Shown: in pieces, positions 9,813 through 23,330 of the stretch | Layout of the letters: each line of letters begins with the position of its first letter | How positions within the stretch are numbered: position 1 is the first letter of the stretch | NCBI GenBank assembly: GCA_021817065.1 | Contig: JAKAWH010000015.1 | Coordinates: 1-39,238, forward strand | Direction: 5' to 3' | DNA length: 39,238 nucleotides | From: Actinomycetes bacterium | GTDB lineage: Bacteria > Actinomycetota > Acidimicrobiia > Acidimicrobiales > JAKAVM01 | Position numbers and translations under genes: made by a program | The notes under the pieces: generated by a model | Databases searched by the model: none | What the model was told of the DNA's origin: nothing | The model's input: only the letters and a program-made list of their open reading frames with translations

Positions 9813-10862
9813 GTGGATAGGTACGACTACGGGCTACCCGAGTCGGCTGTCGCCCAGACACCCGTAGAGCCGCGAAGCGCCGCCCGGCTCCTGGACGCCC
9901 TCGATCCGGGAGGTGCCCTCGCCCATCGCAGCGTCGCCGACCTTCCCACCCTTCTCGGCCCGGGGGATCTCCTGGTGGTCAACGAGACCCGGGTAATCCC
10001 TGCGAGGATATTCCTGGAAAAGGAGGGCGGAGCCCGGGTCGAGCTCCTCCTTCTGGAACCCGTAGTGGGGGATCCACCAGGCCGGGTGGCAGGAAACCCG
10101 GGCCAGGCCGGAGGCTCCGGCGATGAGGTACAGGTGTGGCAGGCACTGGTCCGCCCCCTCAAGCGCTGCCCCCCGGGGACCAGGCTGTTGCGGCCCGGTT
10201 CGGCGGAGCAGGTGGCGGTGGTGGGGGAGCGCTGCGGAGACGGCTCCCGGGCGCGGGTTACTTTTTCGGGGAAGGTAAGACCGCGGGAGCTGGGGATTCT
10301 GGCCCTCCCCCCCTACATTCGTTCCGAGCTGGCCGATCCGGAGCGCTACCAGACCGTTTACGGAACCCGGGATGGGTCGGTCGCCGCACCCACTGCCGGT
10401 TTGCACTTCACACCGGACCTGCTGGAGCGCTGCCGGACGGTGGGTGCGAGTATCGCCACCGTCGACTTGGCAGTGGGGCTGGCCACGTTCAAGCCGATCA
10501 CCGCCTCCCGGCCCGAGGACCACCGCATGCATGCCGAACGCTATTCGGTGCCCGCCGCGACCCTGGAGGCGTGCAAGAGCGCGACCCGGGTGGTGGCGGT
10601 GGGGACCACCACCGTGCGAGCCCTGGAGGCAGCGGCCGCCACCGGGGAGCTGTCCGGGCAGACCAGCCTCTACATCCGGAGTGGTTACCCATTCCGGGTG
10701 GTTGACGTCCTGATGACCAATTTCCACCTGCCTCGCTCAAGCCTGCTTCTCCTGGTCGAGGCGTTCTGCGGGGAACGGTGGCGCGACATCTATCGTGTCG
10801 CACTTGACACCGGGTACCGGTTTCTCTCCTTCGGCGATGCGATGATCGTGGGGCGATCGTGA
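9813..10862 (+). CDS. queA: QueA, SAM:tRNA ribosyltransferase-isomerase
   Basis: QueA transfers and isomerises the ribosyl moiety of S-adenosylmethionine onto preQ1 in tRNA to make epoxyqueuosine. The 349-residue length is normal. Family motifs: DYGLPESAVAQTPVEPRSAARLL, GDLLVVNETRVIPARI, AAPTAGLHFT, VGTTTVRALE and TNFHLPRSSLLLLVEAF. The GTG start (MDRYDYGLP) matches the family N-terminus. It stands divergent to the minus-strand crotonase gene and is followed by tgt, which acts earlier in the same pathway. The 3' end (from 10836) is the template of a tandem duplication in the queA-tgt junction. Confidence 0.96.
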   Translation: MDRYDYGLPESAVAQTPVEPRSAARLLDALDPGGALAHRSVADLPTLLGPGDLLVVNETRVIPARIFLEKEGGARVELLLLEPVVGDPPGRVAGNPGQAGGSGDEVQVWQALVRPLKRCPPGTRLLRPGSAEQVAVVGERCGDGSRARVTFSGKVRPRELGILALPPYIRSELADPERYQTVYGTRDGSVAAPTAGLHFTPDLLERCRTVGASIATVDLAVGLATFKPITASRPEDHRMHAERYSVPAATLEACKSATRVVAVGTTTVRALEAAAATGELSGQTSLYIRSGYPFRVVDVLMTNFHLPRSSLLLLVEAFCGERWRDIYRVALDTGYRFLSFGDAMIVGRS

Positions 10863-10935
10863 GGATGGCCGATGCGATGATGGCGGGGCGATCGTGAGGA
10901 TGGCCGATGCGATGATGGTGGGGCAGTACCGGTGA
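10836..10935 (+). repeat. Tandem duplication of the queA 3' end, with two tiny coupled ORFs
   Basis: Units begin at 10836, 10871 and 10906 (period 35); the first is the queA 3' end. They create ORF 10859-10897 (MRMADAMMAGRS) and ORF 10894-10935 (MRMADAMMVGQYR). The queA stop overlaps the first GTG, the first ORF's stop overlaps the second GTG, and the second stop overlaps the tgt GTG, each as GTGA. Start spacings are 35 and 38, both 2 modulo 3. The third unit has diverged, yet the overlap with tgt is exact. Confidence 0.75.
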
Positions 10936-12053
10936 ATCGTGCTGCGACCTTCGAAGTCGGTGCGCGGTGCGGTGACGCTCGCACCGGCAGGGTTGCCACC
11001 GGGCGGGGCAGCTTCTCCACGCCGTGCTTCATGCCGGTCGGCACCCGCGCCGGGGTGCGGGCGGTGTCCACCGCCGACCTGGAGGACCTCGGTTTCGAGG
11101 TGATGCTTGCCAACACCTATCACCTGATGCTGCGCCCGGGGATGGAGACGGTGGCCCGGTTAGGGGGCATCCACGGGTTCTCCGCCTGGGACGGCCAGGT
11201 TCTCACCGACTCGGGCGGGTACCAGGTATTCTCACTCGGGGCACGATATGACGAGGAGGGGGTCGCTTTTCGCTCGGTGTACGACGGTTCCTCCCACCGG
11301 CTCACCCCCGAGGACGCAGTGGCCATCCAAGCGGGGCTGGGCTCGGACATCCAGATGGTGCTGGACGTGTGCGCCCCCCTGCCCTCGCCGGTACCGGCAC
11401 TGCGGGAGGCGATGGAACTGACCCTTCGCTGGGCGACCCGGGCAGTCGGGGCTCACCGCCTTCTGGCGAACCGTGGGGAGGTGGTGCCCGCCATCTTCGG
11501 CATCGTCCAAGGAGGCGACGACATGGAGCTGCGGACCGAGAGCGCCCGGGCCACTGCCGCGCTGGGCTTCGACGGTTACGGCATCGGAGGACTGTCGGTG
11601 GGGGAGCCCCCCGAGGTACGGAGGGAGGCGCTGGCGGCGGCCCTCGCCGAGTTGCCGGCCGATCGGCCTCGCTACCTAATGGGGGTGGGGGACCCGGCCG
11701 GCGTGGTGGAGGCGATAGCGATGGGGGTGGACATGTTCGACTGCGTGTTACCCACCCGCCTTGCCCGTCACGGCACCGCCCTCACTTCCCAGGGCAGGCT
11801 CTCCATCAAACGAGCTGCCTTTTCCAAAGATCCGGGGCCCCTGGACCCTTCCTGCTCCTGCCCTGTCTGCCACCGCTGGTCCCGGGCCTACCTCCGCCAC
11901 CTGGCCATGGTGGCTGACCCGGCAGTCCTCCGCCTTCTCTCCCTCCACAACCTGGCCTGGATATTCGGGCTTATTAGCCGGGCACGCCGGGCGGTCGAGG
12001 AGGGAAGCCTTGCGGCCCTGGCGAAGGAGGTGGGGGAGGTCTATCCGGTATAG
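10932..12053 (+). CDS. tgt: Tgt, bacterial tRNA-guanine transglycosylase
   Basis: Tgt replaces guanine 34 in the anticodon of queuosine tRNAs with preQ1. The 373-residue protein shows the substrate-binding DSGGYQVFSLG, GGLSVGEPPEV, the nucleophile region MFDCVLPTRLARHGTALT, and a zinc site CSCPVC followed by a histidine in LSLHNL. The start GTG (MNRAATFEV) was chosen because it overlaps the preceding stop as GTGA and fits the family N-terminus. Upstream are queA and two tiny coupled ORFs; yajC follows after 76 bases. Confidence 0.96.
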   Translation: MNRAATFEVGARCGDARTGRVATGRGSFSTPCFMPVGTRAGVRAVSTADLEDLGFEVMLANTYHLMLRPGMETVARLGGIHGFSAWDGQVLTDSGGYQVFSLGARYDEEGVAFRSVYDGSSHRLTPEDAVAIQAGLGSDIQMVLDVCAPLPSPVPALREAMELTLRWATRAVGAHRLLANRGEVVPAIFGIVQGGDDMELRTESARATAALGFDGYGIGGLSVGEPPEVRREALAAALAELPADRPRYLMGVGDPAGVVEAIAMGVDMFDCVLPTRLARHGTALTSQGRLSIKRAAFSKDPGPLDPSCSCPVCHRWSRAYLRHLAMVADPAVLRLLSLHNLAWIFGLISRARRAVEEGSLAALAKEVGEVYPV

Positions 12054-18323: not shown

Positions 18324-18330
18324 CTTTACC

Positions 18331-18430
18331 GGGTCGGGCGGGTTCAGCGGGTCGGGCGGGTTCAGCGGGTCGGGCGGGTTCAGCGGGTCGGGCGGGTTCA
18401 GCGGGTCGGGCGGGTTCAGCAGGTCGGGCG
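18331..18430 (-). repeat. 18-bp minisatellite between vapB and vapC
   Basis: Five perfect 18-base units (18331-18348, 18349-18366, 18367-18384, 18385-18402, 18403-18420) plus a partial one to 18430 fill the gap between antitoxin and toxin. The unit is a copy of the antitoxin's 3' end, so every unit carries TGA in the antitoxin frame. In the toxin frame each unit reads LNPPDP and stays open into vapC. The unit length is a multiple of three, so both properties hold for any copy number. Confidence 0.95.
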
Positions 18431-18753: not shown

Positions 18754-20058
18754 ATGTCGAAAAGCGATGCCCGGGCGCAGTTTCGCGCGCCGGTGGGCAC
18801 TCGAGACATCGTGCCACCCGAGTCAGCCGGGTTCCAGAGGTTGGTGAACCTCTTCGCCGAGCACGCCCGGCTCGCAGGATACGGGCTGGTGGTGAGCCCG
18901 CTCTTCGAGGAAGTGGGGGTGTTCGCCCGCGGGGTAGGCACCTCCACCGACATCGTGGCCAAGGAGATGTACGAGTTCGAGGACAAGGGGGGTCGCTCGA
19001 TGGCACTCCGTCCCGAGGGAACCGCATCGGTGGTGCGCTCCTTCGTGGAGAACCCCCCGCCGGTCCTGCCCTGGAAGGTGTGGTACTGGGGTCCGATGTT
19101 CCGCTACGAGCGGCCCCAGGCCGGCCGGTATCGCCAGTTCCACCAGGTGGGGGCGGAGGCGATCGGCACCGACGATCCGGAGGCCGACGTGGAGATGATC
19201 GCCCTGGCGTGGGACTACTTCGAAGGGGTGGGGGTGGGGGACAAGACCCTCTCGATCAACTCACTCGGAGATGCCCGGTGCCGACCGGATTACCGCGAGA
19301 AGCTGATGGTGTATCTGGCCGGGAGGGAGGAAGACCTGTGCGCCGAGCACCGAAAGCGCTACCGCGAGAACCCGTTGAGGGTGCTCGACTGCAAGAAAGC
19401 CGAATGCGTGGCGGCAACGTCTGACGCACCCCGCCAGGTCGATAGCCTGTGCGCGGAGTGTGAAGACGCCTTCGGTCGAGTGACGACCGCGCTCGCCGCC
19501 CTCTCCATCGACTACGTCCTCCAACCGCGCCTGGTTCGCGGCCTCGACTACTACACCCGGACCACCTTCGAGATCGCAGCGGGGAGCCTCGACGCTGCCC
19601 AGAACGCAATTGGGGGAGGGGGGCGCTACGACGGACTGGTGGAGTCGTTGGGCGGGCCTCCCACGCCGGCGGTCGGATTCAGCGCGGGGATCGAGCGTGT
19701 CGCCCTCGCTCTGGTCGCCGAGCGGGGTACCGAGCAGAGTTCCGAAGCACCCGATGTGTTCGTGGTGGACCTGTGCGGCGGCGTTGCCTCGGTGCTGGCC
19801 CGCGATCTCCGGCGCGCGGGGATAGCGGTGGCGCGGGACTTCGGCGGGCGCTCGACCAAGGCCCAGTTCAAGGCTGCCGATCGCTCGGGTGCTCGATTCG
19901 CCCTGGTGGTCGGGCCGGACGAGGTAGCCGCCGGTACCGTGTCCCTCAAGTCGCTCCGGGAGGCGGATGCCTCCCCGGGATCGCCCCGCCCCGAGAACAC
20001 CCAGACCGCCCTTCCCCGCGCCACAATCGCCATCGAGATGAAGAGGATATTATCGTGA
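18754..20058 (+). CDS. hisS: Histidyl-tRNA synthetase
   Basis: The 434-residue class II synthetase charges tRNA-His. Visible motifs: FRAPVGTRDIVPPES (N-terminal family signature), ALRPEGTASVVRSF (motif 1/2 region), FRYERPQAGRYRQFHQVGAEAIG (motif 2), the histidine-specific LVRGLDYYTRTTFEI, and GGGGRYDGL with VGFSAGIERV (motif 3). A C-terminal anticodon-binding domain (about 330-434) follows. The ATG start is supported by the close -10-like element. Its stop overlaps the aspS GTG as GTGA, as in the actinobacterial hisS-aspS arrangement. Confidence 0.96.
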   Translation: MSKSDARAQFRAPVGTRDIVPPESAGFQRLVNLFAEHARLAGYGLVVSPLFEEVGVFARGVGTSTDIVAKEMYEFEDKGGRSMALRPEGTASVVRSFVENPPPVLPWKVWYWGPMFRYERPQAGRYRQFHQVGAEAIGTDDPEADVEMIALAWDYFEGVGVGDKTLSINSLGDARCRPDYREKLMVYLAGREEDLCAEHRKRYRENPLRVLDCKKAECVAATSDAPRQVDSLCAECEDAFGRVTTALAALSIDYVLQPRLVRGLDYYTRTTFEIAAGSLDAAQNAIGGGGRYDGLVESLGGPPTPAVGFSAGIERVALALVAERGTEQSSEAPDVFVVDLCGGVASVLARDLRRAGIAVARDFGGRSTKAQFKAADRSGARFALVVGPDEVAAGTVSLKSLREADASPGSPRPENTQTALPRATIAIEMKRILS

Positions 20059-21839
20059 CACGTTATGGTAGCCCTGCGGGGATGCGAACCCGCTGGTGCG
20101 GTGAGTTGGGCATCGGGGACGTCGGGGAGGCGGTGGAGCTGTGCGGGTGGGTGGCCCGGCGGCGTGAGCACTCCGCCCATCTCGCCTTCGTCGACCTGCG
20201 GGACCGTACCGGGATCGTCCAGTGCGTGGTGGATGGAGCCGCCGACCTCCGCGCCGAGTACGTGGTGCGGGTGACCGGGACGGTGACCGCCCGCCCGGAG
20301 GGAACGGTGAACCCGAGCCTCGCTACCGGCCAGGTCGAGGTGAGCGGATGTGCGGTGGAGATCCTCAACGAGGCGGAGCCCCCGCCCTTTTCCCTCGAAG
20401 AATGGTCGGAGGCCGACGAGGCGATACGTCTTCGATACCGCTTCGTCGACATGCGCCGGGAGAGGTTGCAGAAGAACCTCGTGATGCGATCTACTATCAA
20501 CGCGGCGATCCGGGCCTCGATGTTCGCGCAGGGATTCACCGAGGTGGAGACCCCGCTGCTGTGGACGCCCACTCCCGAGGGTGCCCGGGAGTTCGCGGTC
20601 CCGTCGCGCCTGCAACAAGGCTCCTTCTACGTCTTGCCCCAGAGCCCCCAGATCGCCAAGCAGCTTCTCATGGTGGCGGGAGTGGACCGCTATTACCAGA
20701 TCGCCCGGTGTCTCCGTGACGAGGACCTGCGGGCCGATCGCCAGTTCGAGTTCACCCAGCTCGATATCGAAGCGTCCTTCGTCGGAGTGGAGGACGTGCT
20801 GGGTTTCGTCGAGGAGGCGGTCCTCGACGCAGTCGAGGCAGTCACCGGGGCCCGTCCAGAGGTACCGGTCCGGATGACCTGGAGGGAGGCACTGGAGCGC
20901 TTCGGCACCGACAAGCCGGACCTGCGTTACGGAATGGAGCTGACCGATCTCGCCGAGGTATTGGCCGGGACCGGGTTCAACGCTTTCAAGGCGGAAGCGG
21001 TCCGTGCGATCTGCGTCCCCGGTGCGGCAGACTCATCGCGCTCCAAACTGGACGGGCTGGTGGAGCGTGCCAAGTCGCTGGGGGCTGCGGGGCTGGTGTG
21101 GATGCGGGTCGTCGCTCCGGCCGGCGACGACACGGCGACCGAGCCCCGCGCGAAGGTCGCCGACCTGGAATCCCCGGTCGCCAAGTTCCTCTCCGATGAC
21201 GAGAGGAACGGGATCGTCGCCGCCTGCGGGGCGAAGCCCGGCGACCTGTTGCTGGTGGTGGCGGGGGAGCACGATCGTGCCTGCCGAGTGCTCGGGCAGT
21301 TGCGGGTGGACCTGGGCCGACCGCCGGTTGCCGAGGGGGGGCTGAGGTTCGTATGGGTGACCGAGTTCCCCCTTTTCGACGGGCTCGACGAGGAGGGGAA
21401 TCCCATGGCTGCCCATCACCCTTTCACCATGCCTCATGCCGACGACCTGGACCTCCTTGGCAAGGACCCCTTAAGCGTGCGATCCCTTGCCTATGACCTG
21501 GTGCTGAACGGATGGGAGCTGGGATCGGGGAGCATCCGGATTCACCGTGCCGATATCCAGTCCCAGGTGTTTGCCACCTTGGGTATCTCCGAGGAAGAAG
21601 CCGAAGAGCGGTTCGGCTTCCTCACCGGGGCATTTCGCTACGGTGCCCCTCCCCACGGAGGTTTTGCGGTGGGGCTGGACCGCCTCACTGCCTTGCTGGC
21701 TGGCGAGGAGAACATCCGCGAAGTGATCGCGTTCCCCAAGACCCAGTCGGGAGCCGACCCGATGACCGGCGCGCCCAAGCCGCTTGCCGATCGTTCCCTC
21801 CGGGAGTTGGGGATCGGCATCCTTCCCCCCAAGAGGTGA
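20055..21839 (+). CDS. aspS: Aspartyl-tRNA synthetase, probably non-discriminating
   Basis: The 594-residue bacterial-type AspRS has an N-terminal OB anticodon domain (VELCGWVARRREHSAHLAF), the class II core with YVLPQSPQIAKQLLM and YYQIARCLRDEDLRADRQFEFTQLD, the bacterial GAD insertion (about 290-430), and FAVGLDRL in motif 3. The start is GTG 20055 (MTRYGSPAG), overlapping the hisS stop; a longer upstream frame only overlaps hisS out of frame. Residue 39 is histidine in the RRREH loop, where discriminating enzymes such as E. coli have leucine. This points to an enzyme that also charges tRNA-Asn and needs GatCAB. Confidence 0.94.
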   Translation: MTRYGSPAGMRTRWCGELGIGDVGEAVELCGWVARRREHSAHLAFVDLRDRTGIVQCVVDGAADLRAEYVVRVTGTVTARPEGTVNPSLATGQVEVSGCAVEILNEAEPPPFSLEEWSEADEAIRLRYRFVDMRRERLQKNLVMRSTINAAIRASMFAQGFTEVETPLLWTPTPEGAREFAVPSRLQQGSFYVLPQSPQIAKQLLMVAGVDRYYQIARCLRDEDLRADRQFEFTQLDIEASFVGVEDVLGFVEEAVLDAVEAVTGARPEVPVRMTWREALERFGTDKPDLRYGMELTDLAEVLAGTGFNAFKAEAVRAICVPGAADSSRSKLDGLVERAKSLGAAGLVWMRVVAPAGDDTATEPRAKVADLESPVAKFLSDDERNGIVAACGAKPGDLLLVVAGEHDRACRVLGQLRVDLGRPPVAEGGLRFVWVTEFPLFDGLDEEGNPMAAHHPFTMPHADDLDLLGKDPLSVRSLAYDLVLNGWELGSGSIRIHRADIQSQVFATLGISEEEAEERFGFLTGAFRYGAPPHGGFAVGLDRLTALLAGEENIREVIAFPKTQSGADPMTGAPKPLADRSLRELGIGILPPKR

Positions 21840-21943
21840 GCCTCTTCGATTCTGCCACGCCTGGGGGGATCCCGGCCCGGTGAGCCTCTTCGATTCTGCC
21901 ACGCCTGGGGGGATCCCGGCCCGGTGAGCCTCTTCGATTCTGC
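21836..21943 (+). repeat. 44-bp tandem repeat at the aspS-rarA junction, with two identical tiny ORFs
   Basis: A 44-base unit occurs at 21836-21879 and 21880-21923, and the third copy (from 21924) is the real rarA start, identical for about 20 bases. Each unit begins with GTG and encodes MSLFDSATPGGIPAR, giving ORFs 21836-21883 and 21880-21927. The aspS stop overlaps the first GTG; each tiny ORF's TGA overlaps the next GTG as GTGA. Period 44 is 2 modulo 3, which is what makes the overlap recur. The two units are identical, so the duplication is recent or actively homogenised. Confidence 0.9.
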
Positions 21944-23330
21944 CGCCGCCGACCAGTTGGCCCGGCGGGCGCCCCTGGCAGCCCGGATGCGACCGGCTGA
22001 TCTCGACGAAGTGGTCGGGCAGACCCATCTTGTGGGTCCGGGTGGGCCGTTCCGAGCGATGCTGGAAGCCGACCGGCTCTCCTCGGTGATCCTCTGGGGT
22101 CCGCCGGGAACCGGCAAGACCACGTTGGCGCGTATAGCCGCCCGGTACACCTCCAAGGAGTTCGTCGCCCTGTCGGCCGTGACCGCCGGCGTCAAGGACG
22201 TGCGGGAAGCAGCCGATGCAGCGCGGCAACGTCTCGGGCAGTCCGGCCGAGGCACCATCCTCTTCGTCGACGAGGTGCATCGTTTCAACAAGGCCCAGCA
22301 GGATGCCCTCCTCCCCTTCGTGGAGGAAGGTCTGGTCGTGTTCATCGGGGCGACCACCGAGAACCCTTTTTTCGAGGTGAACGGGCCCCTCTTGTCCCGG
22401 TCCACCTTGCTGCGCACCGAAGCGCTGGGAGCGGACGAGGTGGTCACACTGATTTCGAGAGCCGTGGCCCGGCTGGCCTCCGACTCCGGGCGTCCCGCAG
22501 CGGCGGCCGAAGGCGTGCTGGAAGAGATCGCCGGCATCGCCGGTGGGGATGCCCGGAGGGCACTCAACGTCGTGGAGCTGCTCCACTCGCTTGCGATGGC
22601 GCATGCTCCGTCGGATTCCCGCGAGGAGGTTGTCCTCGCCTCTGCGGACATGGAGAGAGCAGGCATCGAGCGTGTCCTCTCCTATACCCGCGACTCTCAT
22701 TACGACATGGCCTCGGCGCTGATCAAGTCGGTGCGCGGTTCGGACCCGGACGCAGCGGTGTACTGGTTGGCCCGGATCATCGGCTCGGGTGGCGATCCCC
22801 GTTTCGTCGCGCGACGCCTGGTCATCGCGGCCAGCGAGGACATCGGGGAGGCGGACCCCTCCGCGCTGTGGATTGCTGTCGCCGCCGCACAGGCATTGGA
22901 GCTGGTCGGTCTGCCGGAAGCCGCGCTCAACCTGGCTCAAGCGGCGGTGCATCTGGCCACCGCTCCCAAGTCGAACAGGTCGGCCGCTGCATTGTGGGCG
23001 GCGCAGTCCCACATTGGCGAGAATCGCGGAGCACAGCCGCCGGTCCCCGCTCACCTCCGCGATTCTCACTATCGGGGGGCTTCGGCTCTCGGCCACGGCG
23101 CCGGCTACGTCTATCCTCACGACGACCCACGCGGGTGGGTCGAGCAACGATACTTACCCGATGGAGTCGGTCCGGCTACCGCCCGTCCCGGGGAGGGTCC
23201 CTTCTACCGGCCTTCGGACCATGGAGAGGAGGCGGCTATCGGCGAGCGGTTACGGCTGTTGCGCCAAGGGGGCCTCGACATCGTCGAGCCCCAGGACCTG
23301 GTCGCACTCCGCGGCCAGGCTGGCCCCTGA
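21924..23330 (+). CDS. rarA: RarA (MgsA), replication-associated AAA+ recombination protein
   Basis: RarA acts at stalled replication forks and is related to clamp-loader ATPases. The 468-residue protein shows MRPADLDEVVGQTHLVGPGGP, Walker A GPPGTGKTT, Walker B LFVDEVHRFNKAQQDALLP, sensor 1 GATTENPFFEVN, and the family helical C-terminus (YDMASALIKSVRGSDPDAAVYWLARI). The start is GTG 21924 (MSLFDSAAADQLA). The same first codons occur twice upstream in the tandem repeat. In actinobacteria rarA commonly sits between aspS and alaS, as here. Confidence 0.95.
   Translation: MSLFDSAAADQLARRAPLAARMRPADLDEVVGQTHLVGPGGPFRAMLEADRLSSVILWGPPGTGKTTLARIAARYTSKEFVALSAVTAGVKDVREAADAARQRLGQSGRGTILFVDEVHRFNKAQQDALLPFVEEGLVVFIGATTENPFFEVNGPLLSRSTLLRTEALGADEVVTLISRAVARLASDSGRPAAAAEGVLEEIAGIAGGDARRALNVVELLHSLAMAHAPSDSREEVVLASADMERAGIERVLSYTRDSHYDMASALIKSVRGSDPDAAVYWLARIIGSGGDPRFVARRLVIAASEDIGEADPSALWIAVAAAQALELVGLPEAALNLAQAAVHLATAPKSNRSAAALWAAQSHIGENRGAQPPVPAHLRDSHYRGASALGHGAGYVYPHDDPRGWVEQRYLPDGVGPATARPGEGPFYRPSDHGEEAAIGERLRLLRQGGLDIVEPQDLVALRGQAGP

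Follow-up and report, generated by a model that had tools for sequence, protein, structure and literature searches.

Where co-directional genes share their stop and start codons in an ATGA, GTGA or TGATG overlap, coupling by termination-reinitiation has been reported (PMC6728339, PMC10666635). In E. coli, a 38-nt gap is reported to have lowered reinitiation by 80-90% for two gene pairs and to have eliminated it altogether for a third (PMC10666635), and studies with coupling over larger distances have also been reviewed (PMC12548453). The closest known system to the one analyzed in this work is that of the mycobacterial interspersed repetitive units (MIRUs), which are described as inserting at start codons with their ORF coupled at a spacing of -4, an arrangement that probably affects the gene little (PMC12548453); in the senX3-regX3 gap a 77-bp MIRU unit is reported in tandem, in 2 or 3 copies among BCG strains (PMC9392950).

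Here we analyzed a window of 39,238 nt, that is, the whole stretch of contig JAKAWH010000015.1 under study, in which the junction between queA and tgt carries a short tandem array laid over such an overlap.

Anatomy of the queA-tgt junction

The junction is composed of the following features.

9813 to 10862, plus strand: queA, tRNA preQ1(34) S-adenosylmethionine ribosyltransferase-isomerase (NCBIfam NF001140.0, 332.6 bits, residues 1-347)
10835 to 10924, plus strand: tandem array of a 35-nt unit, 2.57 copies, of the form A(BA)2 with A = 20 nt and B = 15 nt (TRF, repeat search)
10859 to 10897, plus strand: mini-ORF 1, 12 codons, its GTG start sharing a GTGA with the queA stop (sequence)
10894 to 10935, plus strand: mini-ORF 2, 13 codons, its GTG overlapping the stop of mini-ORF 1 and its stop overlapping the tgt GTG (sequence)
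10932 to 12053, plus strand: tgt, tRNA guanosine(34) transglycosylase (NCBIfam TIGR00430.1, 419.1 bits)

QueA and Tgt are full-length and score above the NCBIfam cut-offs of 324 and 306.75 bits, respectively. TRF gave a period of 35, 2.6 copies and 94% matches at 10835-10924, while the repeat search placed 35-nt copies at 10835-10869 (reference), 10870-10904 (94%) and 10905-10939 (66%). With two adjacent 35-nt copies at 94% identity the array is well past chance, and it is a tandem repeat (minisatellite) in the sense of head-to-tail units of at least 10 nt. The queA stop codon TGA (10860-10862) lies inside the first copy, and GTGA is found at 10859, 10894 and 10932, with start spacings of 35 and then 38 nt; the junction therefore holds in series three overlaps of the kind that marks a coupled pair (4 or 1 nt). 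The tgt start is the GTG at 10932, now 69 nt from the queA stop. Mini-ORF 1 reads MRMADAMMAGRS and mini-ORF 2 reads MRMADAMMVGQYR, the final residues of the latter being the original C-terminus of QueA.

A preliminary description of this DNA had proposed that the 3' end of queA is repeated, giving two tiny ORFs in a GTGA chain that leads to tgt, and both the sequence and TRF bear this out. It had also counted three units of period 35; the period and the repeat hold, but only the first 20 nt of the third unit match, which makes 2.57 copies. The apparent divergence of the third unit arises because, after a partial copy of 20 nt, the repeat gives way to non-repeat flank, namely the original end of queA. 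When both full 35-nt units are removed, queA ends in ...GDAMMVGQYR* with its TGA in the GTGA of tgt, at a spacing of -4. The 3' end that queA had originally is preserved in the final 18 nt ahead of tgt; hence the third GTGA is the ancestral queA/tgt overlap itself, and the spacing of 38 nt did not arise by altering one of 35. The supposed three-base change from 35 to 38 that kept the rule thus never took place. Divergence of a third unit under selection is ruled out by this return to the ancestral overlap, and with it falls the argument for selection drawn from the spacings, while the repeated queA end, the tiny ORFs and the unbroken chain stand.

No second copy of the 15-nt filler B was reported in 1.98 Mb of the genome. 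The RNA fold across the array was nothing unusual (z = -0.09), no Rfam family reached its gathering score, no tRNAs were detected, and neither sigma-70-like promoters nor terminators were found near the pair; given the absence of fold, terminator and promoter signals, nothing points to another role for the array.

Proposed translational coupling between queA and tgt

We consider that the queA-tgt array probably represents an expanded stop/start overlap, in which a relay of small ORFs would keep translation of tgt coupled to that of queA, and we assign to this reading a probability of about 0.58. The ancestral queA would have ended in ...GDAM-x-VGQYR*, with the TGA within a GTGA whose GTG started tgt, and two 35-nt units, each bearing a GTGA, would then have been added across the junction. 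As the period of 35 leaves a remainder of 2 on division by three, the frame opened by each added GTG closes at the TGA that follows. A ribosome finishing queA would restart at the overlapping GTG, read a tiny ORF, terminate and restart again, passing from the queA stop through the 12-codon ORF and the 13-codon ORF to tgt, which would be reached in three termination-reinitiation steps; the mini-ORF peptides would need no function of their own. Taking the effect of the 38-nt gap in E. coli as a guide, a gap of 69 nt would be expected to reduce coupling between queA and tgt; a relay of -4 overlaps avoids such a gap, so that coupling could survive the distance. We infer that ribosomes translate the mini-ORFs and that Tgt levels would drop without them.

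The spacing between both genes was compared in 109 loci (29 relatives and 80 further loci, among which species are possibly shared), 101 of which had a usable pair and 8 of which did not. A spacing of -4 was the commonest (46 of the 101), followed by -1 in 9, while 28 lay within -29 to +20, 6 at 21-60 and 12 further apart or otherwise arranged. Tight spacing is thus not universal, as 18 of the 101 relatives are more than 20 nt apart or otherwise wide, and this counts against the relay, as does the possibility that a ribosome starts de novo at tgt. A de novo start past the array, with the mini-ORFs barely translated and the expansion having uncoupled queA and tgt harmlessly, would agree with those widely spaced relatives, with the GGGG runs upstream of the GTGs and with the unremarkable fold of the array; it leaves unaccounted for the distribution of repeat periods described below (9, 4 and none at 2, 0 and 1 mod 3), and we regard it as unlikely.

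In one relative (L024) the gap from queA to the called tgt start is of ~104 nt and contains a long inverted repeat with two arms of ~25 nt. No second genome of the same species was found, and no close relative either: the best of the 80 Tgt loci are 65-66% identical and the best QueA relative 67%, hence no intermediate state of the expansion is visible.

If relays of this type work, an operon can take up inserted DNA at a coupled junction while coupling is kept, and the arrays of this genome would offer a natural series, from one to three extra steps, in which the efficiency of repeated reinitiation could be measured.

Overlap-repeating arrays and their periods

A second array resembling that of queA-tgt was detected in the window, between aspS and rarA.

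20055 to 21839, plus strand: aspS, class II tRNA synthetase of the D/K/N group with a GAD domain (Pfam tRNA-synt_2 and GAD; gene calls), its start uncertain (called at 20055 or 20106)
21835 to 21944, plus strand: tandem array of a 44-nt unit, 2.5 copies, 100% matches (TRF, sequence)
21836 to 21883, plus strand: mini-ORF of 15 codons, its GTG overlapping the aspS stop (chain analysis)
21880 to 21927, plus strand: mini-ORF of 15 codons, its stop overlapping the rarA GTG (chain analysis)
21924 to 23330, plus strand: AAA+ ATPase of the rarA/mgsA type (Pfam MgsA_C, 202.3 bits)

GTGA is present at 21836, 21880 and 21924 and delimits the two 15-codon ORFs (MSLFDSATPGGIPAR). Here the 44-nt unit is a copy of the rarA start, and its excision restores a spacing of -4 between aspS and rarA. 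Elsewhere in the window, an imperfect 34-36 nt repeat (52-146) lies in the 3' part of a gene that shares an ATGA overlap at its end with the one at 183 and is presumably ruvC, given its position ahead of a ruvA-like gene, and an 18-nt unit (a multiple of three) is repeated 5.6 times at 98% between two minus-strand genes (18330-18430).

We then surveyed 1.98 Mb of the genome (the window and 140 stretches) for arrays with a period of at least 15 and at least 80% matches, genes being called with a simple, purpose-written and non-standard hexamer gene finder; at L055 and L140 the downstream genes called (12-33 codons) are doubtful. A total of 198 arrays was obtained, whose periods at 0, 1 and 2 mod 3 numbered 118/3/3 inside genes, 8/1/15 where the array touches a co-directional junction, 9/4/4 in co-directional intergenic regions, 7/7/9 at convergent and 4/1/1 at divergent junctions, and 3/1/0 at contig edges. 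Thirteen junction arrays repeat the overlap at the upstream stop on the same strand: nine at 2 mod 3 (queA-tgt, aspS-rarA, L056:11760, L074, L105:5929, L135, L139, L150 and L163), four at 0 mod 3 (L052, L140, L152 and L154) and none at 1 mod 3.

Excision restores a spacing of -4 in the first seven of the nine, gives -1 at L150, and gives -4 at L163 only if the ATG of the chain, 12 nt past the called start, is used. The relay is unbroken in eight of the nine, while a TAG in the first copy interrupts that of L150, which counts against our reading. The other six junction arrays at 2 mod 3 include four (L034, L055, L100 and L129) in which the chaining ORF is something other than a single unit, and two with no chain (L056:8643 and L075), again counting against it. 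Mini-ORFs are mostly of 9-21 codons and correspond to no known protein. Most of the genes on either side are usual partners in operons, such as an ABC-transporter ATPase and permease (L074) or a methyltransferase and CoaE (L100), and 19 of the 20 flanking proteins scanned have Pfam matches. In L154 (12756-12854) a 45-nt repeat over a GTGA, at 0 mod 3, extends the downstream gene in frame at its N-terminus and yields no mini-ORF.

No similarity was found between any two of 119 arrays, and the chain arrays have no further copy in the 1.98 Mb. Insertion of a mobile, MIRU-like element at this GTGA could be considered from the reported behavior of MIRUs at start codons (PMC12548453), but the lack of similar pairs and of any dispersed family largely refutes it, and we regard this origin as highly improbable. 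Overlaps of this repeat-rich genome have been expanded on about nine separate occasions, each at its own junction.

The genome is indeed rich in repeats, with 74 near-perfect arrays of period at least 25 in 1.98 Mb (~37 per Mb) compared to 6 in 0.87 Mb (7 per Mb, about five times less dense) of 80 control loci, which are tgt neighborhoods only, from other Acidimicrobiia-type genomes; no co-directional array repeating an overlap was found in these control loci. Near-perfect arrays cover the stop at 1.9% (11/586) of gene ends facing an opposite-strand gene and at 2.9% (9/308) of same-strand ends whose stop carries a start and whose gap is 1-150; overlap junctions are not clear hot spots for arrays. 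Copy numbers are often 2.3-2.9, as if built A-B-A-B-A with B as filler. At the convergent-junction array L068:4474-4578 the filler is similar over 21-33 nt (90-100%) to seven further stretches of the genome, which suggests a dispersed family of short repeats.

The meaning of the periods follows from frame logic. For tandem duplications across an overlap of -4 or -1, the overlaps chain automatically at a period of 2 mod 3, the downstream frame is extended at its N-terminus at 0 mod 3, and both are broken at 1 mod 3. Since chaining is automatic at 2 mod 3, the evidence for selection at queA-tgt shrinks to one 1-in-3 event, and the genome-wide bias is a better case for selection than this locus: periods at 2 and 1 mod 3 stand at 15:1 in co-directional junction arrays versus 14:13 in the other non-genic arrays (Fisher p = 0.006). 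This pattern was first noticed in the window and stretches L032-L091; the 80 stretches fetched later (L092-L171) gave 7, 1 and 5 co-directional junction arrays at 2, 1 and 0 mod 3, a weak test as the expectation had not been stated in advance.

We weighed whether the array is a neutral minisatellite of a genome with many short tandem duplications, in which codon periodicity favors microhomologies 2 mod 3 apart at -4 junctions and the chain is a by-product with no role in tgt expression. Besides the high density of arrays, the microhomologies themselves speak for it: at 152 array-free -4 junctions they were distributed over 0, 1 and 2 mod 3 as 29/25/46% (k=5) and 28/17/55% (k=7), a bias presumably due to the codon periodicity of the two genes, whose frames are offset by one. 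With these microhomology nulls the probability of at least 15 of 16 is 0.009, 0.034 and 0.080, and that of finding 1 mod 3 in none of the 13 is 0.023, 0.050 and 0.087, for k=5, 6 and 7, respectively. On the other side, no overlap-repeating array among 13 has a period of 1 mod 3, yet 7 of 23 convergent-junction arrays do. A neutral origin is possible, although we hold it to be rather doubtful. As codon-phase microhomology alone predicts much of the bias, selection for periods of 2 mod 3 is suggested and plausible but unproven.

An assembly artefact might be suggested by the split of this metagenome-assembled genome into 169 contigs, but is very hard to reconcile with copies that differ by substitutions and with a period-phase pattern unlike misassembly; moreover, the 90-nt array fits within ordinary short-read length. 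More tentatively, the overlap repeats might act as a step-wise control of expression, where every unit would contribute one further round of termination and reinitiation, copy number would set the ratio of downstream to upstream protein and selection would have kept only the relay-preserving expansions at 2 mod 3; in that case, relays unrelated to one another would have evolved independently at operon junctions across the genome, although we think this improbable. In any case, the period rule is a simple selection test on translational coupling that can be applied to any repeat-rich genome.

Comparison with known systems

Among the open-licence papers listed by literature searches, no title or abstract opening was found to describe locally duplicated overlaps forming relays. 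Compared to plain termination-reinitiation, the type of overlap is alike, whereas here the coupled step would be multiplied in series via tiny ORFs. Short upstream ORFs that deliver ribosomes (PMC12548453) are similar in that the short ORF would serve for nothing but this delivery, but in our case there are several in series, copied from a gene junction and located inside the operon instead of at its head.

MIRUs differ in being one dispersed and apparently mobile family of mycobacteria, whereas the relays of this genome, from a different class of Actinomycetota, consist of unrelated local units that include the end or start of a gene, with no similar pair among the 119 arrays. Nevertheless, in both the ORF inside the repeat is joined to the neighboring gene at -4, and the 77-bp unit of senX3-regX3 is also 2 mod 3. 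As in MIRUs, moreover, the ORF in the queA-tgt unit meets the stop and start on either side of it in -4 overlaps, and the array lies between co-directional genes. The -4 coupling of MIRUs and the relays proposed here share one working principle.
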